A stretch of DNA of 37,250 nt from assembly GCA_003569365.1 (NCBI GenBank), contig BGOS01000014.1, positions 1 to 37,250 on the forward strand. Reading direction: 5' to 3'. Position numbers and translations under genes: made by a program. Below the pieces are notes generated by a model. That model made no database searches. It was not told the DNA's origin and saw only the letters and a program-made list of their open reading frames with translations. Positions 1,032 to 30,881 of the stretch are shown piece by piece (position 1 is the stretch's first letter; each line of letters opens with the position of its first letter). Origin of the DNA: Anaerolineaceae bacterium (GTDB lineage Bacteria > Chloroflexota > Anaerolineae > Anaerolineales > UBA11657).

Positions 1032-1130
1032 ATGGCACTGGTGATACACTGTCGGCTTGTTCCTGGGCTGGCAATCTTCAGCCTGGCTTGGCTCCAAAAA
1101 ACTTCTGCCTGTGTTCGAAAGGAGTATGAA

Positions 1131-7531: not shown

Positions 7532-8872
7532 TTAATCGACTGCGGGTGGTTTCACCAGGACGAACACCAGATTGATCAGGATGCCGAGCACGGCTGCGGT
7601 GGCGATGGCCGGCAGTCCCTGCGGAAAGATTCCCTGCAGAATGGGGATCGGCAGGAAGCCGCCCGGATAGCCGATGTTGCCACCGATACCGACGACCATG
7701 ATCGTGGCGCCAATGGCAAGATTCTTGGGGTCGAACATGCTGACCTTCTTCTCTTGCATTAGTGCGATGCCCTGCATGCCAATCACACCAAACAGGTAAA
7801 TGGCGAGCCCGCCGCTGACTGCCACCGGGATGCTGGCTACCAGTGCCTCAAACTTCCCGATGAAGGCCAGCAGGATTGCGATTACACCGGCACCGATCAG
7901 TGCCGGGCCGGAGTAGTTGCGCGTGATGGCCATCAGTGAGTTGTTCTCGCCGTAGTTGGTGCCTGCAGTTGCACCGATCAGGCCGTTTAGGAAATCTCCG
8001 ATGCCATCAAGGATCAGATTAAACCCGATCGCCTCATCCAGCTTGTACGGCGCCTCACCTTTTTCTGCTGCCAGCCGGTCCACATACAGGCTCACCTGAT
8101 AAAGGTGCGCCGTCGATTCCGGAATGGTGGCAATTGCCATGATCGAAATAGAAAAAACTGCCGTGGCCACTAAAGGTCCGCTAAACGAGGGAAAGGTGAT
8201 GTTAGGCATCGCCAGCAATCCGGCAGATGCGACGCCCGAAAGATCCACCAGTCCGAGGGGTATCGAAATCAGGTAACCGAATAACCCACCCAGCAAAATC
8301 GGCAGCATGCCAATGAAGCCGCGGTTCTGCAGGTATACCGAACAAAGAATCGTAACGATCAGGGTCAGTATAGACACGGCCCAGTTGCCGCCGGCCATAC
8401 CCAAGGCTGAAAAGCCCAGTCCAAATCCAATGATGGCGGCGACTGAGCCGGTCACAATTGGCGGCAGAAATCTGTCAATTACATCCTTGCCCAGCGCGCG
8501 GATGATGAAGCCGACAATGATATTGAGGATGCCTGTTACGACAATTCCCGCTTGCATTGTGCTGATCAGCTCATTGCTGGCTGGCACGCCAAACTTGGCC
8601 TGACTGATGGACATGTACGCTGCAATGTACGCGAAGCTGGAACCGTAGTAGAGCGGGATAAATTTGCCAATTTGGTTGCGCGAGAGCACCAGCGCCACGA
8701 TTGTGGAAATGCCGGAAGCCAGCAGAACCGTACTTACGTGGAAGCCAGTCAGCAGCGCCACCAAAACCGTTGCGGGAAACATGGTGAGGACATGCTGCAG
8801 CGACAGCAATACCAACTGTCCCATCGGCGGCGTGTCGTTGGGCAGGTAGCCCATTGCCTTGGTTGTAGTCAT
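7532..8872 (-). CDS. NCS2-family (uracil/xanthine-type) nucleobase permease
   Basis: This 446-aa inner-membrane protein with about 14 hydrophobic segments belongs to the nucleobase-cation symporter 2 family. The two family signatures are present: ATIPESTAHLYQVS in TM8 (UraA has the substrate-binding Glu in IPEHVGHL) and GTNYGENNSLMAITRNYSG in TM10. The ATG at 8872 is preceded by GGAG about 9 bases upstream. It is expected to import the heterocycle that the surrounding (-) genes break down. The family spans uracil-, xanthine- and urate-specific members, and the sequence alone does not fix which base is carried. It lies behind a 638-base gap with an A/T-rich leader, so it may be transcribed from its own promoter. 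Confidence 0.9.
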   Translation of the reverse strand: MTTTKAMGYLPNDTPPMGQLVLLSLQHVLTMFPATVLVALLTGFHVSTVLLASGISTIVALVLSRNQIGKFIPLYYGSSFAYIAAYMSISQAKFGVPASNELISTMQAGIVVTGILNIIVGFIIRALGKDVIDRFLPPIVTGSVAAIIGFGLGFSALGMAGGNWAVSILTLIVTILCSVYLQNRGFIGMLPILLGGLFGYLISIPLGLVDLSGVASAGLLAMPNITFPSFSGPLVATAVFSISIMAIATIPESTAHLYQVSLYVDRLAAEKGEAPYKLDEAIGFNLILDGIGDFLNGLIGATAGTNYGENNSLMAITRNYSGPALIGAGVIAILLAFIGKFEALVASIPVAVSGGLAIYLFGVIGMQGIALMQEKKVSMFDPKNLAIGATIMVVGIGGNIGYPGGFLPIPILQGIFPQGLPAIATAAVLGILINLVFVLVKPPAVD

Positions 8873-9510: not shown

Positions 9511-10395
9511 TCAGCAATTTGTGGCTTCAAGTTGTTGTGAAATCCTAATGTCTTTCCAATAGCAGCTTGCAATGAAGCCTGCGAGTGCATCTGCACCGGA
9601 TGTGTGCCCAATTTTTAGCACTGCGCCCAGTGCAGCCGGAAGATTGTCCGGGCAGGCCAGTGCCGCAAACAGTGTATGCCATGCGGACATGGCTTCTCCG
9701 CGGGCTGTGGCGTGCAGAAAGGCTGCAGAGAGTGAGGTGGTTCGGGGCGCAGCGGCATGAGCCAGCGCAACGCAGAATTCCTCCGCGGCGGCGCCGTACA
9801 AGCCGGCCCAGGCGGCTAACATCACACCGATGATGAAGTCATCGCCACTCGGCGTCAAGCCCTGGCCGAGGCCGGCCAGTTGGAGCGCGCCATCAATCGC
9901 TAGATCGAGTGTGCGTGTCCGCACTCCGTTCACCAAGGCGGCAGCACCAAGTGCGGACTGTTTTAGTACTGGATTTGACCCGGGCGCGCTGTAAAGTTCC
10001 ATCAGGCTTTCGGGCGGACAGGAGGCAAGTGCCTGCTGAGAAAGTGAGTTGAACAGATCCGGATTGGTTGTAAGTGCGCGGCGCACGGTGGCCCAGTCCG
10101 GCACCGGATTCCATAACTGTGCTGATGCGGTGAGGATGTGCCATTGCCCCAGATATAGCTCGGAGCCCAAAACGTGGACGGCGTCAGCAGCTTTCAGCCC
10201 GTGAAAATCGGCGGCTTCGATTTGCAGGGCGAACGGTGCCCGCGGGAGTAATTGTGTTGCCAGTGCCATGATGGCGCCGTTTTGGTTAACCAGATTGCAG
10301 GCATGTTCAAACACATTTAGCAGGCGCGCGTGTGTGGTGCCTGCCAGCCACTGTTGGGCAGCAGGCGTGATGGTGATCGCATTAATGCAAATCAT
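9511..10395 (-). CDS. allH: DUF2877 protein (AllH/YlbF-like, oxamate transcarbamylase component)
   Basis: This 294-aa soluble protein carries the two DUF2877 signatures, GLGQGLTPSGDDFIIG near the middle and GHTSGADALAGF near the C-terminus. In E. coli the DUF2877 protein YlbF (AllH) works with FdrA (AllF) and YlbE (AllG) in the carbamoyl transfer that splits oxalurate to oxamate and carbamoyl phosphate during allantoin breakdown. Both partner families are encoded upstream in the same direction. Its ATG at 10395 overlaps the stop of the NmrA-like gene by four bases (ATGA), which implies translational coupling. The family call is firm. Whether the substrate here is oxalurate or another carbamoylated acid is open. 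Confidence 0.85.
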   Translation of the reverse strand: MICINAITITPAAQQWLAGTTHARLLNVFEHACNLVNQNGAIMALATQLLPRAPFALQIEAADFHGLKAADAVHVLGSELYLGQWHILTASAQLWNPVPDWATVRRALTTNPDLFNSLSQQALASCPPESLMELYSAPGSNPVLKQSALGAAALVNGVRTRTLDLAIDGALQLAGLGQGLTPSGDDFIIGVMLAAWAGLYGAAAEEFCVALAHAAAPRTTSLSAAFLHATARGEAMSAWHTLFAALACPDNLPAALGAVLKIGHTSGADALAGFIASCYWKDIRISQQLEATNC

Positions 10396-11288
10396 GGCGC
10401 CGAGTGTGGTTTGGCAGCCCGGCGCGCTGCAACCGTATTGCGCTGCACAAACGCCGCCAAGGTTGTGGGTTCGCGTGCCAACAACCAGCGCAGCACATTG
10501 GGGCTGCCGCTGAGACCGTGCAGTGCATAGTACCGGAACATTGCCAGCAGCGAGGCCAGGGCGTAGTCATTCAAGCCGCGTGTGCTGGCCGCTGCCGCCC
10601 AATCGTTTAGTGATACCACTTCTATGCGCACCGGCTGCTTCAGTTGCCGGCTGAGCAACTCGGCCAGCTGCGTCTGCGTCAGGCCGGGTGTGCCGCACAG
10701 CTCGTATGTAGCGCCGAAGTGGCCGGGCTCTGTTAGCACTTTGGCAGCTACTGCTGCCAAATCAGCAAGATCAATCAAGCTCAGCCGCGTTTCTGGCGGA
10801 TACGGCACACTGTGCACGCCGCGCCCTGTAATTGCGTGCCAGTCCGTCAGAAGATTTTGCATGTAGGCACAGGGCTGCAAAATTGTGAACGCCAGCTGCG
10901 CCGCGCACAGCATTTCTTCCACGCGCAGTTTGTTCCAGTGGTGCGGCATCATTTCCACCTGCGGGTGCAGCACGGAATGATAAACAAAATGGGGGACGCG
11001 CGCGGCGCGGGCGGCTGCGATAACATGGCGGCCAATCGCAACTTCCTGCGGATGCATGTTCGGGCAGATGTGATACAGCGCCTGTACTCCGCTGCAAGCG
11101 GCAGCCAGCGAATCCACATCCAGCAGATCGCCGATCATAATTTGTGCCTGGGTGGCAATTTGTTGCGCTGCAGCGCTGCTTTGCCGGGCGGGTTGGACTA
11201 ATGCGCGCAGCTTGTGGCTGCCGCGCGCAGCGAGCGCGGCAATTACGGCCTGGCCCGTCTTGCCGGTGGCGCCAGTGATGAGAATCAT
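10392..11288 (-). CDS. NmrA-family NAD(P)-binding protein (atypical SDR)
   Basis: This 298-aa Rossmann-fold protein opens with MILITGATGKTGQAVIAAL, the GxxGxxG dinucleotide-binding motif of NmrA/QOR2-like short-chain dehydrogenases. HFVYHSVLHPQ and the following HHWNKLRVEEML take the place of the usual YxxxK active-site region, so a classical Tyr/Lys catalytic pair is not clear. It could be an NAD(P)H-dependent reductase or a redox-sensing regulator. The gene sits between the molybdenum subunit (88-base gap) and DUF2877 (4-base overlap), so it is co-expressed with the catabolic genes. No strong ribosome binding site is visible at the ATG. Confidence 0.8.
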   Translation of the reverse strand: MILITGATGKTGQAVIAALAARGSHKLRALVQPARQSSAAAQQIATQAQIMIGDLLDVDSLAAACSGVQALYHICPNMHPQEVAIGRHVIAAARAARVPHFVYHSVLHPQVEMMPHHWNKLRVEEMLCAAQLAFTILQPCAYMQNLLTDWHAITGRGVHSVPYPPETRLSLIDLADLAAVAAKVLTEPGHFGATYELCGTPGLTQTQLAELLSRQLKQPVRIEVVSLNDWAAAASTRGLNDYALASLLAMFRYYALHGLSGSPNVLRWLLAREPTTLAAFVQRNTVAARRAAKPHSAP

Positions 11289-11376
11289 TGGTGGGCGATG
11301 CTTGAGAGCCGAAGGCGAACTTGTGGCGGCCAGCAGCGGGTGCAGCTTGTCTGCCGCGGGCAGCCAGCGACTGGCA

Positions 11377-13719
11377 CTAGCGGTTCTTGGCGGCTTCCAC
11401 TAATTCCCACAAGCGGTTGGGGCTAAGCGGAATCTCCAGCACTTCGAGGCCGGTGCCAGCCAGTGCATTTTCCACTGCCTGCGCAAACAGCGCACCAACC
11501 GGAATTGCGCCCGCTTCACCGGCGCCTTTTACGCCAAGCGGGTTTAGCGGCGACGGCGTCACCTGATGCGCGACCGTGACCGCCGGCACATCCAGCGCAG
11601 TTGGCAGCAGGTAGTCAATGAAGGAGCCGTTCACCAGCTGCCCGTTTTCGTCGTAGATCAACTGCTCATAGAAAGCATTGCCAATGCCCTGCGCCACGCC
11701 GCCCACCACCTGCGCTTCCAGAATTAGCGGATTGATCACCTCGCCGCAATCATGCACCACCACATATTTCTGCACTTCCACCAGCATTGTTTCCGGGTCC
11801 ACCTCTAAAATCATGGCATGCGCGCCGCTGGCAGTGGCGCCGCGCTCCGGGCCGAAGTAGTTGGTGGATTCCAAGCCCGGTTCTGTGCCTGGCTTTACGG
11901 CACCACGCAGCGGGTTCGCGCGCTGTGCCAGCGTGCCAAGCTTGATGCTGTTGGCCGGCACGCCGCGCACGTGCACTGCACCATCCGCAATTTCCAAATC
12001 ATCCTCAGCGCACTCAAAAATTTCACCGGCCAGTTTCAGAATCTTGCGCCTGACATCTTTCGCAGCTTCGTTGACGGCATTGCCGGCCACCACTGCGCCG
12101 CGGCTGGCAAATGTGCCAGCCCCCCAGTAGAACTGGTCGGTGTCGCCGGTTACCACCTCCACATCGCGCACATCCACACCCACTTGATCGGCTGCCAATT
12201 GTGCCAGGCTGGTGAAGTGCCCCTGCCCCTGAGTGCCAATGCCGGTCGCCACGCTTACCTTGCCGCTGGCTTGCACTTGTACGCGCGCACCCTCGTACGG
12301 GCCGATACCGGTGCCTTCCACATAGCACACCACACCAATGCCAAGCTGCCGGCCCGCAGCCCGCGCTGCCGGCTGCACTTCAGTAACAAAATTCTGGTAC
12401 CCGATCAGCTCCAATGCCTTTTCAAGAATCGGTGCGTAGTTGCCGCTGTCGTACACCAGCGGCGCAAAGTCCTGGTAAATGATTTCATTGTTGTACGGAA
12501 ATGCGTCCGGCGCGATGAAGTTGCGGCGGCGGATTTCATTGCCATCCATGCCAAGGGCCGCGGCGGCAAGATCCAGCAGGCGTTCCATTACAAACACGCC
12601 ATGCTGGCGGCCGGCGCCGCGGTACGGCGTAACGATGGTTTTGGTGGTGAAGACGGCGGTGAACTCGCTGTAATAGTGGGGCACGTGGTAGACGCCCAGC
12701 AGCGTGCACTGGCTGTTGAGAGGCACCGTCAGACCGTACGGGTCGTAGGCGCCGGTGTCATGCAAAAAGACATCGTGCACACCAATGATGCGGCCATCTT
12801 TGCTGACTGCGATTTCGGCGTCGTGCACCTGGTTGCGCTCGTTGGTGGTGGCATAGAAATGCTCAGCGCGGTCTTCAATCCATTTCACGGGGCGGTTGAG
12901 CTGCAGCGCAGCCCACGGCACCAGCACTTCTTCCGGATAGAACATCATGATCTTGGGGCCGAAGCCGCCGCCAATGAACGGCGCAATCACGCGCACTTGT
13001 TTCTCGCTCAGGCCCAGCATGGCGGCCAGTCCGTTGCGAATTACCACCGGTGCCTGCGTGGTGTCCCACACGCTCAGCTTGGCTGCGCGCGCATCCCAGT
13101 GCGCAACCACGCCGCGCGTCTCGATCGGTGCCGACGCACCGTGATCGTAGAGAAAGCGGCGCTTCAGCACCAGGTGCGCATGCTGCTTGGCCGCGGCATA
13201 CTCGCCCTTGCGCTGGATGACATGCGCCGCCACGTTTGAGCCAACGTCTGCATGCACCAGTGCCGCGTCTGGTGCGAGCGCCTGCTCCAAATCCACCACG
13301 GCTGGCAGCGGTTCAAAATCCACTTCGATATCAGCCATTGCATCTTCGGCAATATAGCGGCTCTCTGCAATGACAAGCACAATCGCCTCGCCCGCGTGGC
13401 GCACTTTGTCTTTTGCCAGCGGCACCTGTGTGCGGGCATTGAAGACGATGCCCGGAACCGGCGGCGGCGGCACCAGCAGCGGGCCGGGCTGCCAGTAATC
13501 TCCAAGGTCGGCAGCGGTGTAGGCCGCAATCACACCAGGCCGCGCCAGCGCCCGCGTAACATCCACATGTTTGATGCGCGCGTGCGCGTACGGGCTGCGG
13601 TAGAACGCCGCATGCAGCAGGCCGGGCAGCTCCACATCATCCACAAACAGCGCCTGCCCAGCAAGCAGGCGCGGGTCTTCATTGCGGGTAACGGGCGCGC
13701 CAAAGTAGCGGGTGGCCAT
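11377..13719 (-). CDS. Xanthine dehydrogenase-family molybdopterin-binding subunit
   Basis: This 780-aa large subunit of a molybdenum hydroxylase would hydroxylate a heterocycle or aldehyde carbon using water. It opens with GAPVTRNEDPRLLAGQA, typical of the CoxL/aldehyde oxidase group. Further landmarks are the GGGFGPK cofactor loop (250-256), TPYRGAGRQ (365-372) in the active site, a GTQGQGHFTS Mo-cofactor segment and GVKGAGEAG with the catalytic Glu at about 735. It lacks the AYxCSFR loop of true CO dehydrogenases, so CO is an unlikely substrate. Its FAD and 2Fe-2S partners are encoded separately about 5.4 kb upstream at the front of the same gene run, with the amidase, FdrA, DUF1116 and cyclase genes between them. 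The substrate cannot be read from sequence; an N-heterocycle is the inference from the neighbours. Confidence 0.9.
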   Translation of the reverse strand: MATRYFGAPVTRNEDPRLLAGQALFVDDVELPGLLHAAFYRSPYAHARIKHVDVTRALARPGVIAAYTAADLGDYWQPGPLLVPPPPVPGIVFNARTQVPLAKDKVRHAGEAIVLVIAESRYIAEDAMADIEVDFEPLPAVVDLEQALAPDAALVHADVGSNVAAHVIQRKGEYAAAKQHAHLVLKRRFLYDHGASAPIETRGVVAHWDARAAKLSVWDTTQAPVVIRNGLAAMLGLSEKQVRVIAPFIGGGFGPKIMMFYPEEVLVPWAALQLNRPVKWIEDRAEHFYATTNERNQVHDAEIAVSKDGRIIGVHDVFLHDTGAYDPYGLTVPLNSQCTLLGVYHVPHYYSEFTAVFTTKTIVTPYRGAGRQHGVFVMERLLDLAAAALGMDGNEIRRRNFIAPDAFPYNNEIIYQDFAPLVYDSGNYAPILEKALELIGYQNFVTEVQPAARAAGRQLGIGVVCYVEGTGIGPYEGARVQVQASGKVSVATGIGTQGQGHFTSLAQLAADQVGVDVRDVEVVTGDTDQFYWGAGTFASRGAVVAGNAVNEAAKDVRRKILKLAGEIFECAEDDLEIADGAVHVRGVPANSIKLGTLAQRANPLRGAVKPGTEPGLESTNYFGPERGATASGAHAMILEVDPETMLVEVQKYVVVHDCGEVINPLILEAQVVGGVAQGIGNAFYEQLIYDENGQLVNGSFIDYLLPTALDVPAVTVAHQVTPSPLNPLGVKGAGEAGAIPVGALFAQAVENALAGTGLEVLEIPLSPNRLWELVEAAKNR

Positions 13720-13792
13720 AAAGCAGACTTTACCGGCAGCAGTTACAGGTTCAGTAAGTTTTCAACGCGCTGCATAACTGCCAACGCGCTGC

Positions 13793-14638
13793 TTATTTGC
13801 CACGCTTGCGGGCAGCCGGCTTGCTTTTGGCAGCGCGGGCGGCAGGCTTGGCATCTTCATCCAGCCAGGCTACGGCGCGGCAGAAAGCAGCCTCGCCGCC
13901 TTTGAAGTTCCACGGGAACGCGCCCAGCGTGATGCGCTTGTTGTGCAGTTCCGGCCGGCTGATGTCGCCGCCCAAGTTCTCCACGTGCATGCAGTCATGC
14001 GGGAAGAGTGCGTTGTGGGTAAGCTGGTAAGCCGAGTCCGGGAACAGCGTACCCATGTTTTTCTTGCCAAATTTTGCCTCGCTCTTGGCGCGCACTTTTT
14101 GCCAGTGCTCCAGGCCGCCACGGCCCAGAAAGCGGCCGATGGGCAGATTCATGGGATGGTCGGTGGAAATCATATCGACACCCCAGATATGAATCTTCTT
14201 CTTCAGCAGCCAATCACAGATGCTGAAGTGCGGCCCGGGGTGGCGCTGAATGTAGCGCTCTTCGTCACCTTCCGGGCTAAGGAAAGAGTACTTGTGCCAG
14301 CCGGTGTGAATGAAAAGAATATCGCCCTCGCGGATGTCTGCGCGGGCTTCCAAGTCCTTGGGCGTGAAGAGCGCCAGATCGTCGCAGATGTCGCTTACAT
14401 CCACAATCACGCCCGGGCCCCACATCCACTCCACCGGGATTTGGTCGATGGTGCGGCCGTGCGTCACAAAATGGCGTGGTGCATCCAAGTGGGTGCCCAT
14501 ATGGTTGGAGGTCATGATGTATTGTGCATTGACGCCATGCTCGGCCTTGCGCTTAATGTACTTGACCTCAAACGGCGGATAGAACGGCCAAAAGGAACAA
14601 TCCTGGTTGAGCGGCTGGGAAAGGTCGTAGATTTTCAT
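13793..14638 (-). CDS. Cyclase-family metal-dependent hydrolase (isatin hydrolase/kynurenine formamidase type)
   Basis: This 281-aa enzyme has the PF04199 metal-binding signature HMGTHLDAPRH, giving His46, His50, Asp52 and His56. The family hydrolyses cyclic or N-formyl amides using manganese or zinc; isatin hydrolase and kynurenine formamidase are members. Ring opening of an oxidised heterocycle would suit the neighbouring hydroxylase and carbamoyltransferase genes. The ATG at 14638 is preceded by AGGAG 6 bases upstream. The C-terminus ends in a short strongly basic tail (KPAARAAKSKPAARKRGK) that is not part of the catalytic domain and is unusual for the family. It follows DUF1116 by 124 bases and precedes the Mo subunit by 73. 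Confidence 0.88.
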   Translation of the reverse strand: MKIYDLSQPLNQDCSFWPFYPPFEVKYIKRKAEHGVNAQYIMTSNHMGTHLDAPRHFVTHGRTIDQIPVEWMWGPGVIVDVSDICDDLALFTPKDLEARADIREGDILFIHTGWHKYSFLSPEGDEERYIQRHPGPHFSICDWLLKKKIHIWGVDMISTDHPMNLPIGRFLGRGGLEHWQKVRAKSEAKFGKKNMGTLFPDSAYQLTHNALFPHDCMHVENLGGDISRPELHNKRITLGAFPWNFKGGEAAFCRAVAWLDEDAKPAARAAKSKPAARKRGK

Positions 14639-14762
14639 GAAAGACTCCTGTGGGGAATGTCGGGTACCTTGGGATTATGGTGCAGTAACAATCGGCAGGC
14701 TACCCGCAAGTGTAGCCGAACCATGCTGCGTGCTTGCGGGTGGTTGGCCCATTAAAGCTTTG

Positions 14763-16013
14763 CTACAGACCGTACTTCTCTGCGTATGCCAAGAGCGCCT
14801 GCTCAAAGATTACCATCGGCGGCCGCACCAGCCCGGCGCCAACCTGCCCAACGCCGGCGTTCTTGTGCGCGATGCCAGTGTTGATGCGCGGCGCGATGCC
14901 CAGTTCCACCACCTTGCGAATGTCTATGCCCGTGGGCGTGCCGCGAAAATCCAGCGCGGGCATTGTAAAGTGCTTGTGTTCGGTGGTGGTGATTTCATAC
15001 ATCTCCAGCGTGGCATTGAGGGCATCGCGCGGTGTGCCGCCTACAAAAGTCACAATCGCCGGCGCTGCTGCCATTGCAAAGCCGCCAATGCCAGCCGTTT
15101 CCGTGATGGCACTGTCGCCAATATCGGGGTTGGCGTCTGCTTGTGAAAACCCGGAGAAGAACAAGCCCACCGGAATTTCCGCCGGCGCAGTGAACCACTG
15201 GCCGGGCAGGCCGCTGATGCGGATGCCAAAGTCTGTGCCGTTGCGGGCCATGGCGGTCACCAGCGTGCTGCCTTCAACGCCGTGCGCCGCATCTGTCATT
15301 GCTTTGCAGGCCGCCATCACCGGGTTCAGCACACTGAGTGCATTGTCCCCCAAAAACTTGAGCACTTCCGATTGGCCATCTGCAGCGCCATTGCCTTGCG
15401 CTATCAGCGGCGCCAGCGCCTTCAAGAACAGCAGCGAGCCGGCCTTGTTGCGGTTGTGGCCTTCGTCCCCCATGTGCAGTGCCTCGGCAATCAGGGCGCG
15501 CAAATCAATGCCGTCGCTGCGCGCGAGCGCTGCGCCCACAGTGGGGCCGAGCACAGTGTTCATCCAGCGCAGGCGCGTGAGCACCTCGGCACTGTAGGCG
15601 CCGTAGCGCAGCACCTTGCCGTAGCCCTCATTCAAGTTGGAATATGCGGTGTTAGTGCTGCCTGTGCCCGCTTTGTTTTCCACCACATACACCAGCATCG
15701 ATGCGGAAGTAACGCCCGCCATCGGCCCGACTGTGTTGTGTTCGTGGCACGGCTCAAACTGCACGCCGCCGCTTTCAGCAAGCGCGATGGCCGCGGCTTC
15801 AGTGTGCGCCAGCTGCTCAAACAGCATGGCGCCAATCATGGCGCCGCGCAGCGGGCCGGACATGCGCGCCCAGGCAATCGGCGGGCCGGCGTGCAGCAGC
15901 AGATTGCTGTGCATGCCCGGGATCACATCGCGCGCGGCAGCCACCCCGGTCAGCATCGGCCGCGCCTCGATCATGCGCGTGACAGCAGATTGATTGGCCT
16001 GTTCAATATCCAT
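14763..16013 (-). CDS. allG: DUF1116 protein (AllG/YlbE-like, oxamate transcarbamylase component)
   Basis: This 416-aa protein belongs to the DUF1116 family. Characteristic stretches are LLHAGPPIAWARMSGPLRGA near residue 50, EPCHEHNTVGPMAGVTSASM, a GDEGHNRNKAGS motif in the middle and AHKNAGVGQVGAG near the C-terminus. The E. coli member YlbE (AllG) is one of the three proteins required for oxamate transcarbamylase activity; FdrA is encoded immediately upstream here and DUF2877 further down. The start at 16013 is used because AGGAG ends 5 bases before it; an in-frame codon at 16028 has no such site. The gaps are 88 bases to FdrA and 124 to the cyclase gene. Confidence 0.87.
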   Translation of the reverse strand: MDIEQANQSAVTRMIEARPMLTGVAAARDVIPGMHSNLLLHAGPPIAWARMSGPLRGAMIGAMLFEQLAHTEAAAIALAESGGVQFEPCHEHNTVGPMAGVTSASMLVYVVENKAGTGSTNTAYSNLNEGYGKVLRYGAYSAEVLTRLRWMNTVLGPTVGAALARSDGIDLRALIAEALHMGDEGHNRNKAGSLLFLKALAPLIAQGNGAADGQSEVLKFLGDNALSVLNPVMAACKAMTDAAHGVEGSTLVTAMARNGTDFGIRISGLPGQWFTAPAEIPVGLFFSGFSQADANPDIGDSAITETAGIGGFAMAAAPAIVTFVGGTPRDALNATLEMYEITTTEHKHFTMPALDFRGTPTGIDIRKVVELGIAPRINTGIAHKNAGVGQVGAGLVRPPMVIFEQALLAYAEKYGL

Positions 16014-16101
16014 GCTTGCTCCTGTCATTCTGGCTTACAAGTGCGCTTGCACCCGGTGCGCCTTGAGATTGGCTGCCGCCAAAAGTTTTGCTGGCATGCT
16101 G

Positions 16102-17775
16102 CTAACGCTTGTTCATCTTCGCCAAAATATCCGCCAGCTTGTCGTTGCCGGCTGCCGGCGGGCGCCAGTCCAGCTGCAAACACTGGGCACCCTGCGCGAC
16201 CATGCTGGTGTAAAAAGTTTCAACGCCGGCGTTCAACGCTGCCATGGGCTGGGTCAGGGCGGTGAGCTCCACCGGTGCAAAAGCAGTGGCGGCTGCGGCG
16301 CCGAAGCGGCTGCACACATAAGCCAGCGCTGCACTGGGATTGGTAAACAGCCGGCACCCCGCTGTTTCAAGGCGTTCTTTCTGTGACTGCATGTCCTGCG
16401 GATCTTCATCGGTGCCGATCAGCATCACCACAAACTCCAGGCCGGTGCGCCGGCTTGCGGCAATCACGGGCGCCAGTTCCGCAGCCGGGTCCGCGTGCAC
16501 GCCTTCGCCCAGTACCACGTCCAGCAATATCATGCCCACCTGCGGGTCTGCGGCTTCCTGTCGGATGCGCCGCAGCCGCAGGTCATTGTCCAGCAACGGA
16601 TGCAGGCGTCCCACGGTAAATTCATCGCCGCCCAGATCCAGCAGCGTGTGCGCCTGGCTGTGCAATGCATCCGCCAGCTGCTGGCTTTTGTGCACCGGCG
16701 CATTGGAGAAGAGCGGGTGCAGCGTTGTTTGCAGCACAAGCATGGCTTCATAGGCAAGCGTGCCACCGGAGAACAGGCCGCGCAGCCACATGCCGGTTAG
16801 CGCACTACCAGGTTGCTGCGCCGGCTGACTGCTGCCGGCCAGCTGGCTAACGGCCAGCTCGGCTGCCTCATTAAGCGACGTGGCAAAGTGCAGGTTGCCC
16901 AGCTGCCGCGCTGGCGCGGGGTAGCCAATGAAGTCGACCACAACCGGTTTGCCACAGGCCTGCGCGGCAGAAAGCAGCTGCGCCGCAACTTCGGGCGCGG
17001 GTGGCTTGGAGATCAGCACAATCACCTGAGTGGCGGGATCACGCGCCAGCAGGTGCAGCGCTTGGTGGGCTGTAATTGCACCGACAGCAGTATGCAGGTC
17101 ACGGCCGCCGGTGCCCAACGCGTGCGAGACGCCTGCTCCCAGCTGGTGAACGCGGCTCGCCACCGTTTGCAGCCCGGTGCCGGAAGCACCCACAATGCCC
17201 ACCGCGCCGCGCCGCACGCGGTTGGCAAAGCCCAGCCCAATGCCATTGATGATGGCAGTGCCACAGTCCGGGCCCAGCAGCAGCAGTCCCTGCGCACGCG
17301 CCGTCTGCTTCAGCTCAATCTCATCTTCCAGCGCCACATTGTCGCTGTACAAAAATATATGCTTGCGCAGCTTGAGCGCTGCGCGGGCCACACCCGCTGC
17401 AAACCGGCCGGGCACCGAGATCAACACCCAGCCGGCTGCGGGCAGCTGGCGCGCAGCAGCTTCCAGGCTGCGCGGGCGAAACTCCGCGTCAACTGCTGCG
17501 CGCTTGCGGTTGAGCAGGCTGTCCACCTGTGCCAGCGCCTGCAGCGCCGCACTCTCACTCTCGGCTTTCACCACAATCAGGGTGTCATCCGCTGCCGCAC
17601 TGCGCGCACTTTCGGTGAGCAGGCCGCTTTGCTGCAGCAGCGCGCAATTGGCAGGCGTGGCCATCACCACGCCGGCATCATGCACGCCCGGCAGCAGCAG
17701 CAGCTCACGCTGCAATTGCATCAGCACCACTGAGTCAAAGTAGCTGCCCTTGCGAATTTCGCTTTGAATGTTCAT
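16102..17775 (-). CDS. fdrA: FdrA family protein (AllF-like, oxamate transcarbamylase component)
   Basis: This 557-aa protein is related to the alpha subunit of succinyl-CoA synthetase. It begins MNIQSEIRKGSYFDSVVLM, the usual FdrA N-terminus, so the ATG at 17775 is chosen over an upstream TTG at 17796. It carries GPDCGTAIINGIGLGFAN, GAVGIVGASGTGLQ and SHALGTGGRDL, all hallmarks of the family. In E. coli FdrA (AllF) acts with YlbE and YlbF in the phosphorolytic transfer of a carbamoyl group from oxalurate, making carbamoyl phosphate that a carbamate kinase turns into ATP. No carbamate kinase is encoded in this window. The start shows no clear ribosome binding site. The role is strong by family; the exact carbamoylated substrate is unknown. 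Confidence 0.9.
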   Translation of the reverse strand: MNIQSEIRKGSYFDSVVLMQLQRELLLLPGVHDAGVVMATPANCALLQQSGLLTESARSAAADDTLIVVKAESESAALQALAQVDSLLNRKRAAVDAEFRPRSLEAAARQLPAAGWVLISVPGRFAAGVARAALKLRKHIFLYSDNVALEDEIELKQTARAQGLLLLGPDCGTAIINGIGLGFANRVRRGAVGIVGASGTGLQTVASRVHQLGAGVSHALGTGGRDLHTAVGAITAHQALHLLARDPATQVIVLISKPPAPEVAAQLLSAAQACGKPVVVDFIGYPAPARQLGNLHFATSLNEAAELAVSQLAGSSQPAQQPGSALTGMWLRGLFSGGTLAYEAMLVLQTTLHPLFSNAPVHKSQQLADALHSQAHTLLDLGGDEFTVGRLHPLLDNDLRLRRIRQEAADPQVGMILLDVVLGEGVHADPAAELAPVIAASRRTGLEFVVMLIGTDEDPQDMQSQKERLETAGCRLFTNPSAALAYVCSRFGAAAATAFAPVELTALTQPMAALNAGVETFYTSMVAQGAQCLQLDWRPPAAGNDKLADILAKMNKR

Positions 17776-17860
17776 GCGGGCATGCGCCACAAGCAAGCAT
17801 GGCGCGCGCAGTGGCCGTAAGCCGGAAAGGCGGGCGCTGGTTTCAGGGCATGCGCCTGCA

Positions 17861-19157
17861 TCAGATTATTTTTTCAACCGCCACGGCGTGCTTTAGCAGC
17901 AGCTCGTCTGCCTGCCAGCCGCCCGTAAGCTGTAAGCCCACTGGCAGACCATTAATCGTTCCAGACGGCAGGCTCAGCACCGGCAAGCCCGCATGGGTCC
18001 AAGGTAGATTCATCACCGGATCGCCAGTGCTGTCCAAGCCGGCCGGCGCCGGTCCCTGGGCGGCCGGCGAAAGCCACACATCAATTTGTTCGCGCTCCGT
18101 CACTTGTGCCAACTCTGTGCGCAAGGCGCTACAGCTTGCCAGTGCTTGGGACAATTGTGCATCGGTAATCTCCGCGCCGCGCTTAAGCAGCTCGACAGTT
18201 TTAAAATGGTACAGGTCGCGGTATTGTGCAAACCAGCTGGCATGCACACGCGCGGCTTCGGCAGCGGTGATGAGGTAGTGCCGCTCGCGCAGCGCTGCAA
18301 AATCCTGCATCACGTTGACGTGTTTCAGCTCACAACCGGCAGTCTGCCAGTTTTTGGGCAGTTGCGCGGAAGTGCGCCAGCATGTTCGGCGCGGCGCGTT
18401 CCAAATACGGCCCTTCGGGAATTCCAAACACCGGCTTGTGCGCCACCGCAGGTTTTGTGTTCCAACTGTTAGCCAGCAGGCTGGCTGCAAGCTGCACCCC
18501 AGCAAGATCAGCTGCAAATACACCCACATGATCGAGCGATGGCGCGAGTGCAATTACGCCCGCACGCGGGATGCGATCGTAGCTGGGCTTAAAGCCAACT
18601 ACTCCGCAGTATGCCGCGGGGCGCACGATGGAGCCGATGGTTTGGGTGCCGAGCGTGAGTGGTGCGAGGCCGGCGGCAACGGCCGCAGCCGAACCGCTGC
18701 TGGAACCGCCGGGCGTGTGCGGCTGGCCGGCGGGGCTGTGCGGGTTGCAGGTGGCGCCCGGCCCAAAATATGCAAACTCGGTGGACACTGTTTTGCCAAG
18801 CACGAGCGCGCCCGCCTGTTTCAGGCGCGTCACGCTGGGTGCTTCTGTGCCGCGCAACACTTCCACAGGCAGCCGGCTGCCGCCGGTTGTCGCAAACCCG
18901 TCCACATGAAAAATGTCTTTGATCCCCATGGCCACGCCAAACAGTGCGGGTCGCGCGGCCGGATTTGGAAAGCGGGCTTGCAGCTGTTGGGCGGCGTGCA
19001 GCAAGCGCTCAAAGCGCCCGGGCTCTGGCATGAACGCGTGCACATCTGGTTCGCGGGCAGCAAACCGCGCTGCCAGCTGCGCAATGTATTCGGGCAGCGG
19101 CAGCGCGCCGGACCGCAGGCAATCAGCCAGTGCGGGCAGGCTGGCGGGCAGATTCAC
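17861..19157 (-). pseudogene. Amidase (amidase signature family), apparent 1-base frameshift
   Basis: The gene starts with GTG at 19157-19155, overlapping the FeS-subunit stop as GTGA, and would encode about 431 aa. Amidase-signature catalytic residues are all visible: Lys80 in AMGIKDIFHVDG, the cis-Ser in PGGSSSGSAAAV (about 152-154) and the nucleophile Ser176 in GTQTIGSIVRPA. The first frame stops at 18330 after FRATAQKLADCRL. The second frame carries the continuation CELKHVNVMQDFAALRERHY down to a TGA at 17861. Removing one base near 18343, in the TGCCGG context, joins them as LADCGCELKHVNV. An assembly insertion is likely, because both halves are otherwise intact and the coupling to neighbours is kept. 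It would hydrolyse a carboxamide, perhaps a linear pathway intermediate such as a ureido amide. Confidence 0.82.
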
Positions 19158-19666
19158 GGTTGTGGCGTTGAATCTACGGGCTGCATTTGTTCCGCAGCCA
19201 GCAGCGCCGCGGCAACAATGTTCTGGTAGCCGGTGCAGCGGCACAAATTGCCGGAGAGCGCAGTGCGCACTGCATGCTCGGTGGGCGTTGGGTTGTCCTG
19301 CAGAAATGCCGTCAGTGTCATCAAGATGCCGGCCGTGCAATAGCCACACTGCAGGCCGTGCTTTTCCCAGAATGCGGATTGCAGCACGTTTAGTTTGTCT
19401 GGCGTGCCGAGGCTCTCGACTGTGAGCAGCGCATGGCCGTCAGCCTGCACCGCCAGCATCAGGCACGCGCGCACTGGCTGGCCGTCAAACAAGATGGTGC
19501 ATGCGCCGCACGCGCCCTGCTCACAGCCCACATGCAGGCCGCTCAGCCCAAGGTCATGCCGCAAAAAATCGCTGAGCAGCTGGCGCGCTTCTGTGTGGCG
19601 TTCGTAGGCCTGGCCATTTACAGTGGTTTGAATCAAATGCGTTTCCGGCATGGTTTCACGCTGCAT
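19154..19666 (-). CDS. 2Fe-2S subunit of xanthine dehydrogenase-family hydroxylase
   Basis: This 170-aa small subunit passes electrons from the molybdenum centre to FAD. The plant-ferredoxin-type cluster is bound by Cys48, Cys53, Cys56 and Cys68 (GCEQGACGAC...C). The second cluster is bound by Cys107, Cys110, Cys142 and Cys144 (CGYC...CRC). All eight ligands are present and the length is typical. The start could also be Met6 at 19651; neither has a clear ribosome binding site. It lies 51 bases after the FAD-subunit gene, and its TGA is embedded in the GTGA that starts the amidase gene. Confidence 0.92.
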   Translation of the reverse strand: MQRETMPETHLIQTTVNGQAYERHTEARQLLSDFLRHDLGLSGLHVGCEQGACGACTILFDGQPVRACLMLAVQADGHALLTVESLGTPDKLNVLQSAFWEKHGLQCGYCTAGILMTLTAFLQDNPTPTEHAVRTALSGNLCRCTGYQNIVAAALLAAEQMQPVDSTPQP

Positions 19667-19717
19667 GATGGGTGCGGGCGATGCGATTGCGGTATGCCCA
19701 GTGCAAGCTGCACATTT

Positions 19718-20584
19718 TCAATTTGCGCGTTGCACAGCAAGCCGCAGTGCGCGGCGCGCGAGTACGCGCGCCAAATGGCGCTGGTAGGCAGGCGTCGCAT
19801 GTACGCTGCCCATCGGCTCCAGCTCTTCTGTGGCGCTGCTTGCTGCCGCTTCAATTGCAGCGCTGCCGGGCAGCTGGCCGAGCAGCGCTGCGGCGGCGCG
19901 CTGCGCATTCATCGGCCGGTCGCCAGCGTTCAGAAAAATGAGCCGCGCTGCGCTGCACGCGCCGGCGGCGTCCAGCGTCACAACAACCGCCACCCCCAGC
20001 ATCGCGTAGTCGCCGTGGCGGCGCGCAACTTCCATGAAGGCCGTGCCGGTGCGCGCGGGTGCTGCCGGTATAGCCACCTCCACCAGCATCTCGTCTGTTG
20101 CAATCGCAGTGGTAAACAGCGACACAAAAAAGTCATCCGCGCCCACCCAGCGTTCGCCGGTGGACGACTGCAGCCGCAGGCGCCCGCCAAGTGCCGTGAG
20201 AATTACCGGCAGCTCAGCGGCCGGATCGGCATGTGCCAGCGAGCCGCCCACCGTGCTGCGGTTTCGGATTTGCGGGTGCGCAATGTGTGGCACGGTTTCC
20301 GGCAGCAGCGGCCAGTGCGCGCGCACCAGCGGATCATGCTCCAAGCGCTGCACGCGCGTGAGAGCGCCAATCCGCAATTCGCCAGCCACCACATGTATGT
20401 AATCCAGCGCGGCAAGTTTGTTCACATCCACCAGCAGGGCCGGATTTGCGATCCGGAAATTCATTGCCGGGATCAGGCTTTGTCCGCCGGCTAAGAACTT
20501 TGCCTCGTCGCCGTGCTCGGCTTTAAGCATTAGTGCTGCGCCAAGCGAGGTGGGCGCGTGATAAACAAAGGGTGCAGGTTTCAT
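19718..20584 (-). CDS. FAD-binding subunit of xanthine dehydrogenase-family hydroxylase
   Basis: This 288-aa medium subunit has an N-terminal FAD_binding_5 domain (KFLAGGQSLIPAMNFRIANP, then TVGGSLAHADPAAELP) and a C-terminal CO_deh_flav_C domain. It takes electrons from the 2Fe-2S subunit and hands them to NAD or another acceptor. It is the first gene of the (-) cluster. No ribosome binding site is evident before the ATG at 20584, and the upstream 250 bases contain a 10-bp palindrome at 20737-20762 that could be regulatory. Confidence 0.9.
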   Translation of the reverse strand: MKPAPFVYHAPTSLGAALMLKAEHGDEAKFLAGGQSLIPAMNFRIANPALLVDVNKLAALDYIHVVAGELRIGALTRVQRLEHDPLVRAHWPLLPETVPHIAHPQIRNRSTVGGSLAHADPAAELPVILTALGGRLRLQSSTGERWVGADDFFVSLFTTAIATDEMLVEVAIPAAPARTGTAFMEVARRHGDYAMLGVAVVVTLDAAGACSAARLIFLNAGDRPMNAQRAAAALLGQLPGSAAIEAAASSATEELEPMGSVHATPAYQRHLARVLARRALRLAVQRAN

Positions 20585-26402: not shown

Positions 26403-26927
26403 ATGATCCTGCAAGTCACGCCGCTCGCAGATGGCGCTGCGGTGCCGGCGCCGCTTGATATGTACCAGTGCGGCGTTATCGCCGAATGGGTTGACTACAA
26501 CAATCACATGACTGAAGCGGCATATCTCACTGCGTTTGGCTGGGCTTCAGATGTTTTGTTTCAATACATCGGCATAAACGACAACTACCGCGCTGCTGGC
26601 AACTCGTATTACACAGTTGAGACGCACATTATATTTGAGCGCGAGGCTGCACTCAACGACAAGTTGCGCATTACCACGCAAGTCTTGGATTTCGACTCTA
26701 AGCGGCTGCACTTTAATCACGAAATGTTCAATGCTGCGAAGCAGGAGCGCCTCGCGACTTGCGAGCAGATGTTGTTGCATGTCAATTCGCGGGCGGCCAA
26801 AGCCGCACCAATCCCCGAGTCGGTAGCCAAGGCACTCAAGGCGATTAGACTGAGCCATATGCGACTTGCGACCCCGCCGGAAGTCGGCCGAACGATGAAA
26901 ATTATCCACAAGGAACCGGGAGGTTGA
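26403..26927 (+). CDS. Hot-dog fold thioesterase (betainyl-CoA thioesterase-like)
   Basis: This 174-aa cytoplasmic protein resembles the thioesterases that accompany or are fused to bacterial carnitine dehydrogenases. The diagnostic segment is VIAEWVDYNNHMTEAAYL (the catalytic region of 4-hydroxybenzoyl-CoA-type hot-dog enzymes), followed by HIIFEREAALNDKLRITTQ and DFDSKRLHFNHEMF. It should release a free acid from a CoA thioester, plausibly betainyl- or butyrobetainyl-CoA. The ATG at 26403 has only a distant AGGG. An upstream GTG at 26364 is possible but less likely. The gene ends 3 bases before the acyl-CoA dehydrogenase gene, so the four-gene unit is one operon. Confidence 0.8.
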   Translation: MILQVTPLADGAAVPAPLDMYQCGVIAEWVDYNNHMTEAAYLTAFGWASDVLFQYIGINDNYRAAGNSYYTVETHIIFEREAALNDKLRITTQVLDFDSKRLHFNHEMFNAAKQERLATCEQMLLHVNSRAAKAAPIPESVAKALKAIRLSHMRLATPPEVGRTMKIIHKEPGG

Positions 26928-26930
26928 ATC

Positions 26931-28091
26931 ATGGACTTCGCGTTAACCCGGCAACAGGAAATGATCGTCGACACGACGCGGCAGTTCACCGAGCGGGAGT
27001 TGATGCCACACGAGGCAAAAGTTGAGCGGGACGGCGAAGTCGCGCCGGATCTGGTCAAGCAAATTAAGCAGCGTTCAATTGCTGCAGGCATCTACGCCTG
27101 CAACATGCCGGCTGAACTTGGTGGCGGCGGGCTTAATTCTTTCGAGACAACGCTCGTGGACCGGGAACTTGGGGTGACCGCGTATGCGCTGCAATATATT
27201 GTGGCACGACCCAGCAATATTTTGCGGGCGTGCAAAGGCCGGCAAATTGAGCAGTATCTGACCCCCACAATCCGGGGTGAGCGCGTCGAGTGCTTGGCGA
27301 TGTCTGAACCTGGCGCCGGCTCAGATGTGCGGGGAATGAAGTGCACTGCAACGCGTGATGGCGACGACTGGCTTATCAATGGCAGCAAACATTTCATATC
27401 CCACGCCGATCTGGCTGACTATGTGATTCTGTTTGCAGCGAGTGGTGAAGAACAAACCGCGAAGGGCGTAAAAAAGAAGATCACCGGGTTTCTTGTCGAT
27501 TTTGATTCCAAGGGCTGCGAGCGCGTTAAGGGCTACAACTGTGTCTCGAACAATGGGTATCACAACCTGATAATTAATTTCGACAACTGCCGCGTGCCGG
27601 CAGGCAATGTACTGGGCGAGGAACACCGGGGTTTTGATACTGCCAACGAGTGGCTTGGGTCCTCCCGCCTGCAGGTGGCTGCAGTGTGTGTTGGTCGCGC
27701 CCGGCGCGCATTGCAGCTTTCGGTGGCGTGGGCGGCAACCCGCGAACAGTTCGGCCAAAAAATCGGCAAGTTTCAGGGTGTGTCGTTCAAGCTGGCTGAC
27801 ATGCAGATGCGCCTGGACGCGGCCGAGCTGCTGACTTTGCGGGCTGCGTACAACGATGCGCAGGGCAACTTCAGCGACACTGAAGTTGCGATGGCCAAGG
27901 TGTTTGCCAGTGAGATGTGCCAGTTTGTGACGGATGAGGCGATCCAGATTTTTGGCGGCATGGGCCTGATGGACGAACTGCCACTTGAGCGCATGTGGCG
28001 TGACACGCGGGTCGATCGCATCTGGGACGGCACGAGTGAGATTCAGCGGCACATTATTTCGCGCGCACTGTTGCGTCCCCATGGGGGCTGA
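26931..28091 (+). CDS. Acyl-CoA dehydrogenase, CaiA-like
   Basis: This 386-aa FAD enzyme has the standard N-helical, middle-beta and C-helical domains. LAMSEPGAGSDVRGMKC and the TREQFGQKIGKFQ motif are typical, as is IQIFGGMGLMDELPLERMWRD near the end. In the position of the usual catalytic Glu (YEGT) it reads IWDGTSEIQ, with Asp366, and the alternative helix-G position has Ser-Arg rather than Glu. In its context it would act as a crotonobetainyl-CoA reductase or butyrobetainyl-CoA dehydrogenase. GGGAGG ends 8 bases before the ATG. Its end overlaps the following ligase gene by 11 bases. The family call is firm; the substrate is inferred from the neighbours. Confidence 0.87.
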   Translation: MDFALTRQQEMIVDTTRQFTERELMPHEAKVERDGEVAPDLVKQIKQRSIAAGIYACNMPAELGGGGLNSFETTLVDRELGVTAYALQYIVARPSNILRACKGRQIEQYLTPTIRGERVECLAMSEPGAGSDVRGMKCTATRDGDDWLINGSKHFISHADLADYVILFAASGEEQTAKGVKKKITGFLVDFDSKGCERVKGYNCVSNNGYHNLIINFDNCRVPAGNVLGEEHRGFDTANEWLGSSRLQVAAVCVGRARRALQLSVAWAATREQFGQKIGKFQGVSFKLADMQMRLDAAELLTLRAAYNDAQGNFSDTEVAMAKVFASEMCQFVTDEAIQIFGGMGLMDELPLERMWRDTRVDRIWDGTSEIQRHIISRALLRPHGG

Positions 28092-30117
28092 TCGGCGGCT
28101 GGCGCGCACGCTGCACCCGCGTTCCATTGCGTTGTTTGGCACGGGGCCCGCGCAAAGGGTGATTGTTCAATGTCAAACTTTGGGTTTCGGCGGCGGGTTG
28201 TGGCCAATTCACCCAACGCGCGAAACCATTGCCGGCGTGCGGTGCTTTAGGGCAGTTGCGGACTTGCCGCACGCCCCGGATGTTGCATTCGTCGCTGTCA
28301 ATCGCCATGCAACAATCGATGTGGTGGCGCAGTTGGCTAAGGCTGGCGCGGGCGGGGCTGTGTGTTACGCGTCCGGCTTTGCTGAATCGGGCACACAGGC
28401 TGGTGTTGACGGCGCTGCCCTGCAACAACAGCTTGTCGAGGCGGCGGGCGCAATGCCGTTGCTGGGCCCGAATTGCTACGGATACATCAACGCCCTTGAT
28501 GGTGTTGCGCTGTGGCCTGACCAGCACGGCTGCCAACCGGAACCGGGCGGCTCGGCGATTGTCAGCCAAAGCGGCAATGTGGGGCTCAACCTAACATTGC
28601 AGCAGCGCGGCCTTAATCTCGCTTACATGGTGACCGTTGGCAATCAGGCAAGCGCGGGAATAGAAGACTGCCTGGAAGTGTTCATTGACGACAGCCGGGT
28701 TACCTCCATTGGATTATTCGTCGAAGCGATTGTTGACCCGGTGCGGTTTGCACGACTGGCCGGCACTGCGGCACAACGCAACCTGCGGATTGTGGCATTG
28801 CAAACCGGGCGCAGCGCAGCTGGCGCATTAATCGCCGCGTCGCATACCGCGGCGCTGGCGGGCCGGCGCAGCGCATACGCGGCGCTTTTTAAGAGATGCG
28901 GTGTGGCGATGGTCCAATCACCCGCAGAACTGATAGAGGCGCTGAAATTGCTCAACCAGGGGGGTGTGCTTACGGGCAGCAAACTTGTGTCACTTTCGTG
29001 TTCGGGCGGTGAAGCGTCGCTGATGGCTGACCTAAGCGAGCAGACCGCGCTGCGCTTTGAACCGTTTTCTTCCGAACACTGCCAACGCATTAGCGCAACG
29101 CTGACCGAGCTTGTGACGGTGGGTAATCCTTTTGACTATCACACCTTCATGTGGGGTGATCGCGAGGCCACAGCCAATACTTTTACCCAGGTGATGAATG
29201 GCCCGCAGGATGCAACGCTGCTGCTGCTTGACACCCCGCCGCGGCCCGACCAGCAATCGGACGCGTGGGTTGGTGCTGCGCAGGCGCTTGGCGCTGCGGC
29301 GCAGGCGACGAACAGGCGCGGCGTGGTGGTGGCAACACTGCCGGAGTGCGTGACTGCTGATGTGCGCGCTGCAGCCCGCGCTGCGAAGCTGGTAGTGCTG
29401 CAAGGTTTGCACGAAGCGCTTGCCGCGCTTGATGCGGCTGCGTGGCTGGGAGCCAATGCTCCCGGGGCAGAGCCTGCTGCGGTGGTTGCACCAGTGCAGA
29501 CCAAATTGATCGACGAAGCAGATGCAAAAGTTCTGCTGCAGAAAAATGGGGTCACTGTGCCAAAAGGGGCGCGCTGCCGGTGCGCAGATGTTCTCGCGAC
29601 AGCAAAAAATATTGGCTACCCCATTACATTGAAGGGGCTGGGTCTTGCGCATAAGAGCGAGTCTGGTGCCGTCCACGTCGGCCTTAGAAATGCGGACGAA
29701 CTCAGCGCAGCAGTCAAGAAGCTGCCCCAAAAAATTACTGAGTGTCTTGTGGAACAGACGATCACTAATGTTGTGGCCGAAATTCTGGTCAGCGTCCGGC
29801 GCGATGCCCCGGTGGGATGGCTGGTCACGCTTGGCGCAGGCGGCGTCTTTACCGAACTCTGGCGCGACACGGCCTGTTTGCTTGCTCCAGTGAGCGCCGC
29901 GGATATTCGGCGGTCGCTCGAATCCCTTCGAATATTTCCGCTTTTGACGGGGTTTCGCGGACAGCCGGCTGGCGACATCAATGCGCTCGTGGCCCTGACT
30001 CAGAGCGTGATACTCCTGGCGCTTGGTAACAACCTGGCCGAGATTGAAATAAACCCGGTGCTTGTAACGCCCAATGCTGCAGTGGCCGCAGATGCCTTTA
30101 TGGTTGCGGAGCAATAA
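28081..30117 (+). CDS. Acyl-CoA synthetase (ADP-forming), fused alpha-beta type
   Basis: This 678-aa protein joins a CoA-binding domain (HPRSIALFGTGPAQRVI), a succinyl-CoA ligase-like domain (AIVSQSGNVGLNL, then AASHTAALAG with the phosphohistidine candidate His255) and a C-terminal ATP-grasp domain (from about residue 475, LLQKNGVTVPKG, ending in AEIEINPVLV). Such enzymes interconvert acyl-CoA plus ADP and phosphate with the acid plus ATP. The ATG at 28081 overlaps the dehydrogenase stop by 11 bases. Its TAA shares one base with the next start (TAATG). Placed between CaiA- and CaiD-like genes, it may activate carnitine or crotonobetaine, a task done by CaiC or CaiB in enterobacteria, or harvest ATP from the product CoA ester. 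Confidence 0.88.
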   Translation: MGADRRLARTLHPRSIALFGTGPAQRVIVQCQTLGFGGGLWPIHPTRETIAGVRCFRAVADLPHAPDVAFVAVNRHATIDVVAQLAKAGAGGAVCYASGFAESGTQAGVDGAALQQQLVEAAGAMPLLGPNCYGYINALDGVALWPDQHGCQPEPGGSAIVSQSGNVGLNLTLQQRGLNLAYMVTVGNQASAGIEDCLEVFIDDSRVTSIGLFVEAIVDPVRFARLAGTAAQRNLRIVALQTGRSAAGALIAASHTAALAGRRSAYAALFKRCGVAMVQSPAELIEALKLLNQGGVLTGSKLVSLSCSGGEASLMADLSEQTALRFEPFSSEHCQRISATLTELVTVGNPFDYHTFMWGDREATANTFTQVMNGPQDATLLLLDTPPRPDQQSDAWVGAAQALGAAAQATNRRGVVVATLPECVTADVRAAARAAKLVVLQGLHEALAALDAAAWLGANAPGAEPAAVVAPVQTKLIDEADAKVLLQKNGVTVPKGARCRCADVLATAKNIGYPITLKGLGLAHKSESGAVHVGLRNADELSAAVKKLPQKITECLVEQTITNVVAEILVSVRRDAPVGWLVTLGAGGVFTELWRDTACLLAPVSAADIRRSLESLRIFPLLTGFRGQPAGDINALVALTQSVILLALGNNLAEIEINPVLVTPNAAVAADAFMVAEQ

Positions 30118-30881
30118 TGAGTATTGAGATCGTGCCCAATGGCGAGATTTTGGAAATCACAATCAATCGCCCAAAAGCCAACGCGATTGATGCGGCGACG
30201 AGTCGTGAGATGTCATCAGTGTTCGAGGCGTTCATGAACGATTCGAGCTTGCGCGTGGCAATCGTGACCGGAGCCGGCAACAAGTTTTTTTGTGCCGGCT
30301 GGGACCTGAACGCGGCGCGTGCAGGCGAAGCTTTTGAATCGGACTATGGCGCAGGCGGTTTTGGCGGCATCTGTGAACTGAAGCACCGTCCCAAGCCAGT
30401 GATTGCTGCGGTCAACGGCATGGCTGTCGGTGGCGGTTTTGAGATTGCATTAGCGGCGGACCTGATTGTGGCCGCTGAGCACGCCGAGTTTTTCCTGCCT
30501 GAGGTAAGTCTTGGTTTGATTGCCGACAATGCCACCATCCGACTGCCGCGAATGGTGCCGCCAAATATTGCCCGCGAAATGCTGATCGCCAGCCGGCGCA
30601 TGGCGGCGCCCGAAGCGCAAACATGGGGCATCGTCAATCAGGTGGTGACAGCTGAAGATTTGTTGCCTGCCGCGCGCCGGCTTGCGGAAAGAATATGTGC
30701 TGCTGCGCCGCTCAGTGTCGCTGCCGTGCTTGAGTTGATTCGGGAACTTGAGGCCGTGCCAATCGCTGATGCGATGCAGGTGTTGCGCAACAATCAGACT
30801 TACCGCGCAGCGATCAACTCGCAGGACGCCCAGGAAGGCGCAAGTGCTTTCGCCGAAAAGCGCAAGCCGAAGTGGCTGTGA
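30117..30881 (+). CDS. caiD: Enoyl-CoA hydratase, carnitinyl-CoA dehydratase-like
   Basis: This 254-aa crotonase-fold enzyme matches CaiD closely in motif order: FFCAGWDLNAARAGEAFESD, VNGMAVGGGFEIALAADL, FFLPEVSLGL, LPRMVPPNIAREML and a C-terminal GASAFAEKRKPKW. The two catalytic acids are Glu109 and Glu129, corresponding to Glu111 and Glu131 of E. coli CaiD. CaiD hydrates or dehydrates carnitinyl-CoA/crotonobetainyl-CoA. The ATG at 30117 overlaps the ligase stop by one base. It is the last gene of the unit, followed by 146 bases and a convergent gene. Specificity for carnitine is strong by similarity but not proven. Confidence 0.85.
   Translation: MSIEIVPNGEILEITINRPKANAIDAATSREMSSVFEAFMNDSSLRVAIVTGAGNKFFCAGWDLNAARAGEAFESDYGAGGFGGICELKHRPKPVIAAVNGMAVGGGFEIALAADLIVAAEHAEFFLPEVSLGLIADNATIRLPRMVPPNIAREMLIASRRMAAPEAQTWGIVNQVVTAEDLLPAARRLAERICAAAPLSVAAVLELIRELEAVPIADAMQVLRNNQTYRAAINSQDAQEGASAFAEKRKPKWL

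Follow-up and report, generated by a model that had tools for sequence, protein, structure and literature searches.

Gene content and organization of the operon

The operon at positions 26403-30881 of the window (the whole stretch analysed here, 37,250 nucleotides of an Anaerolineaceae contig) consists of four genes on the plus strand:

26403-26927, plus strand: thioesterase, a stand-alone hot-dog enzyme (4HBT_2 in the domain scan)
26931-28091, plus strand: acyl-CoA dehydrogenase (ACAD), short-chain type, with Acyl-CoA_dh N, M and 1 domains
28081-30117, plus strand: ADP-forming synthetase (ACD), fused, with CoA_binding_2, Succ_CoA_lig and ATP-grasp_5 in a single chain
30117-30881, plus strand: CaiD-like hydratase (crotonase), ECH_1 in the domain scan

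All four open reading frames were verified at these positions, and the tight packing described in the initial annotation, with genes overlapping or at most 3 bases apart, is confirmed (spacing +3, -11 and -1 bp). A 3 bp gap separates the thioesterase from the ACAD, the start of the ACD overlaps the end of the ACAD by 11 bp, and the ACD and hydratase overlap by 1 bp (TAATG). The thioesterase start at 26403 agrees with the N-terminus of a relative in locus L030, and the ACAD is complete as an acyl-CoA dehydrogenase in the domain scan.

The initial annotation placed a fused ADP-forming synthetase in a carnitine-type CoA operon, and the domain composition is consistent with this assignment. The CoA-binding, succinyl-CoA ligase-like and ATP-grasp domains of the ACD family (PF13380, PF13607 and PF13549) all score above cut-off within one chain. 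The phosphohistidine, His255, aligns with His292 of DddX and is invariant in 87/87 ACDs, as is Trp358. Identity to the ACDs of the corresponding alphaproteobacterial modules is 43-45%. The ACD is a predicted gamma-butyrobetaine/crotonobetaine:CoA ligase and is the sole plausible substrate activator of this operon. Since ACD families vary in substrate, its true substrate could be D-carnitine, crotonobetaine or another trimethylammonium acid.

The ACAD had been described as CaiA-like. It is an acyl-CoA dehydrogenase, but the label is loose: the protein is 30% identical to E. coli CaiA as against 56-61% to alphaproteobacterial module ACADs, and it reaches 177 bits with the CaiA NCBIfam model, for which the curated equivalog cut-off is 540. 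The position of the catalytic base is occupied by an acid, Asp366, within WDGTSEIQ. This column, which aligns with the Glu of the short-chain acyl-CoA dehydrogenase YEGT motif, holds an acid in every aligned row having a residue there (51 Asp, 29 Glu). The enzyme is predicted to be a gamma-butyrobetainyl-CoA dehydrogenase.

The best NCBIfam family of the hydratase is crotonobetainyl-CoA hydratase, although at 308 bits the protein lies outside the curated CaiD equivalog (cut-off 500). It shares 54% identity with E. coli CaiD and 50-52% with the module hydratases, and both catalytic glutamates, Glu109 and Glu129, are present and invariant in 80/80 hydratases.

The best-matching NCBIfam model for the thioesterase is carnitine 3-dehydrogenase PRK07531, which it matches over the C-terminal thioesterase half (158 bits, profile positions 341-491), and the enzyme is predicted to act on L-carnitinyl-CoA (or betainyl-CoA). 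In a tree of thioesterase domains, it groups with the ACAD-adjacent enzymes of Acidimicrobiia-type loci, separate from the domain fused to the carnitine 3-dehydrogenase of the same genome. Two thioesterases occur in 15 loci, and they may divide the labour by serving two CoA esters.

Conservation and distribution of the ACAD-ACD-CaiD module

We scanned GTDB species genomes, kept 80 loci, annotated them by tblastn, and counted them jointly with plasmid loci. The gene directly preceding the ACD is an ACAD in 80/81 loci, and the one directly following it is a CaiD-like hydratase in 77/80, so the arrangement is far beyond chance. BKACE and carnitine 3-dehydrogenase genes share the locus in 46 of the 58 loci with wide flanks. 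The combination is not an unusual one: the module ACAD is found in 155 plasmid records and, within one Rhizobium family, in 76/151 sampled genomes.

On plasmids of Ruegeria, Rhizobium, Paracoccus and Sinorhizobium, the ACAD, the ACD and a 'carnitinyl-CoA dehydratase' are lined up in this order. The Rhizobium, Sinorhizobium and Paracoccus clusters also hold carnitine 3-dehydrogenase, BKACE and an ABC transporter. Their ACAD-ACD-CaiD order and their partner enzymes recur in the genome studied here, which differs in that the set is split over two contigs, a separate stand-alone thioesterase is present, and no transporter adjoins. Among the loci of Rhizobium relatives, the ACD is a single fused reading frame in 11/12, with separate alpha and beta frames in the remaining one (L159).

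Several local variations were observed. The ACD and CaiD-like genes of Ruegeria pomeroyi are separated by a DJ-1/PfpI family gene (L014:12011-12616), and two loci (L062, L165) carry a tandem pair of CaiD-like hydratase genes beside the ACD. Many proteobacterial loci, L014-L018 among them, carry a GlxA-family regulator close to the module, often divergent.

The nearest relatives are freshwater Acidimicrobiia-type metagenome-assembled genomes (L029-L034), in which the ACAD is the most conserved module member (79-88% identity, against 61-77% for the ACD). In these relatives, a single run comprises BKACE, carnitine 3-dehydrogenase, thioesterase, ACAD and ACD, joined by CaiD wherever the contig extends far enough. 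The order, including the stand-alone thioesterase, is that of the window, with the difference that BKACE and carnitine 3-dehydrogenase are contiguous with the rest in these relatives and separated in our genome. The window operon therefore corresponds to the second part of this six-gene run, split from the first. One such run (L030) belongs to a record titled Bifidobacterium breve; it is close to the Acidimicrobiia-type versions, and the record is probably mislabelled or contaminated.

Within the window's own class, the ACD was detected in 2/298 sampled genomes, and in 0/9 other genomes of the family, which are mostly incomplete. Together with the Acidimicrobiia-type nearest relatives, this rarity is suggestive, and only suggestive, of horizontal transfer.

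Partner genes in the rest of the genome

Searching the assembly that contains the window, we recovered the carnitine dehydrogenase that the initial annotation had proposed to look for. A carnitine 3-dehydrogenase-thioesterase fusion is encoded at C21:48629-50080 (662 bits, NCBIfam cut-off 592), with a BKACE gene directly upstream. The module itself is located on contig C14, so that the genome combines adjacent and ordered ACAD, ACD and CaiD genes with carnitine 3-dehydrogenase and BKACE genes elsewhere, and not the contiguous Rhizobium-type module. After the carnitine 3-dehydrogenase, near the end of C21, comes the gene of a Rieske oxygenase (L010:14301-15212) that carries a VanA_C domain and shows weak similarity to glycine betaine monooxygenase.

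CaiB and CaiC, stated to be missing, are indeed not in the operon, and their best-scoring matches genome-wide are distant homologues of only about 28% identity. No PF02028 match, the signature of the CaiT/BCCT antiporters, occurs anywhere in the genome. A complete caiTABC set of the E. coli type, which together with induction of the operon by another substrate would have spoken against the initial interpretation, was considered and rejected on these grounds. Paired class III CoA transferases are likewise not encoded in the operon, and the CaiB query returned one distant match in the genome. As for betaine/carnitine transporters, no BCCT protein was found and no dedicated transporter adjoins the operon; one OpuAC-type and many SBP_bac_5 binding proteins are at most candidate carriers.

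Proposed route from gamma-butyrobetaine to glycine betaine

Our interpretation starts from what was observed, namely the gene content, the families of the proteins, their synteny and their conserved residues. We postulate, with a probability of roughly 80%, that the four genes are the feeder half of an aerobic degradation pathway for gamma-butyrobetaine and carnitine, leading through CoA esters to L-carnitine. For the substrates and the reaction direction, we infer the following. The ACD would convert gamma-butyrobetaine (or crotonobetaine), ATP and CoA into gamma-butyrobetainyl-CoA (or crotonobetainyl-CoA). The ACAD would oxidise gamma-butyrobetainyl-CoA to crotonobetainyl-CoA, to which the CaiD-like hydratase would add water, giving L-carnitinyl-CoA, and the stand-alone thioesterase would release free L-carnitine. 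The enzymes encoded on C21 would then take over: carnitine 3-dehydrogenase would oxidise L-carnitine, and BKACE cleavage would yield betainyl-CoA and subsequently glycine betaine. Activation of the ADP-forming kind consumes a single high-energy bond instead of two.

A finer distribution of roles can be drawn, to which we attach a low probability. The thioesterase joined to carnitine 3-dehydrogenase would hydrolyse betainyl-CoA and the one beside the ACAD L-carnitinyl-CoA, while relatives with a single thioesterase would free L-carnitine by running the ACD in reverse, regaining ATP.

The pathway is already known in outline from the literature. Gamma-butyrobetainyl-CoA has been prepared from ATP and CoA with BcoAB of Sinorhizobium meliloti, an enzyme termed a gamma-butyrobetaine:CoA ligase (PMC8364193). 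In its predicted function, the ACD resembles BcoAB in its ATP- and CoA-dependent activation of gamma-butyrobetaine; BcoAB is named as two genes, whereas the window ACD is fused. An industrial strain resembling Rhizobium turns gamma-butyrobetaine into L-carnitine along a path analogous to the breakdown of fatty acids, and it possesses an L-carnitine dehydrogenase (PMC2131755). A passage citing Bazire 2019 attributes two functions to the S. meliloti carnitine dehydrogenase, which is reported to act on betainyl-CoA as well, yielding glycine betaine (PMC12482172). The operon is thus a further member of this system in a different lineage: the gene set is widespread, the chemistry is largely known, and the pathway is an ordinary one. 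Its value is a useful correction of annotation and no surprise. The fused ACD, for which 'acetate--CoA ligase family protein' is usually the sole annotation, can now be tied to the putative activation of trimethylammonium acids in several bacterial lineages, and the gene set points to a gamma-butyrobetaine/carnitine pathway in freshwater bacteria.

Alternative substrates and directions

There is an outside chance that D-carnitine or crotonobetaine, and not gamma-butyrobetaine, serves as the main substrate and is turned into L-carnitine via CoA esters, with the ACAD in a secondary role. Judged by their families, the hydratase and ACD would serve equally well, as the CoA intermediates are the same. 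However, the ACAD's high conservation and its place directly upstream of the ACD in 80/81 loci indicate that the oxidation step matters.

An E. coli-like use of the operon is less probable still. Carnitine would be activated and dehydrated, crotonobetainyl-CoA reduced as electron acceptor, and ATP recovered from the product ester by a reversible ACD. The reaction types match CaiA and CaiD, the CoA intermediates are those of the caiTABCDE system, and reversibility is a general property of the ADP-forming synthetase class. Against this stand the low identity of the ACAD to CaiA, the co-occurrence of carnitine 3-dehydrogenase and BKACE, the lack of a CaiT/BCCT antiporter in the genome, and the operon thioesterase, which would waste the thioester. 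The net direction we propose is opposite to that in E. coli. The initial annotation had suggested an energetically different carnitine or crotonobetaine respiration or fermentation; this is not supported, as the genome also encodes an oxidative L-carnitine route, with which the module usually shares a locus in other genomes. The accompanying idea that ATP is conserved when the product CoA ester is cleaved also loses its footing, because the thioesterase would let the route leave the CoA ester irreversibly and make ATP recovery needless.

The closest solved structure to the ACD is DddX (7cm9), an ADP-forming synthetase superfamily member that matches it over nearly the full length (E about 1e-60). 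The ACD might accordingly be read as an ATP-dependent DMSP lyase, with the operon handling DMSP and acryloyl-CoA, and the top NCBIfam model of the ACAD is acryloyl-CoA reductase, though far under its cut-off. A DMSP lyase is nevertheless very improbable because the DddX recognition residues Trp391 and Glu432 are replaced by His354 and Gln392 in the ACD; in the module at large, the first of these columns is His with few exceptions and the second is mostly Asp or Ser. The synteny, too, is with carnitine genes.

Equally improbable is elimination of trimethylamine from gamma-butyrobetainyl-CoA by the ACAD: BbuA of Emergencia timonensis, likewise annotated as an acyl-CoA dehydrogenase, acts on that ester and is encoded in a cluster with a thioesterase, but activation there relies on two class III CoA transferases (PMC8364193), and here the CaiD-like hydratase and carnitine 3-dehydrogenase would continue the route without trimethylamine loss.

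Other features of the window

Upstream of the operon, the minus strand of 9511-20584 encodes oxamate carbamoyltransferase subunits of the AllFGH type amid xanthine dehydrogenase-like subunits, a putative cyclase and an amidase:

16102-17796, minus strand: FdrA/AllF, oxamate carbamoyltransferase subunit
14763-16028, minus strand: AllG, oxamate carbamoyltransferase subunit
9511-10395, minus strand: AllH, oxamate carbamoyltransferase subunit

A Xan_ur_permease gene at 7532-8872 lies just past these genes. The region at 9511-20584 is likely a purine or allantoin-type nitrogen cluster. Finally, positions 1032-4169 on the plus strand encode a lipoprotein-like protein of 1045 residues with no Pfam match, in which degenerate Leu/Asp/Glu-rich repeats are visible by eye toward the C-terminus.
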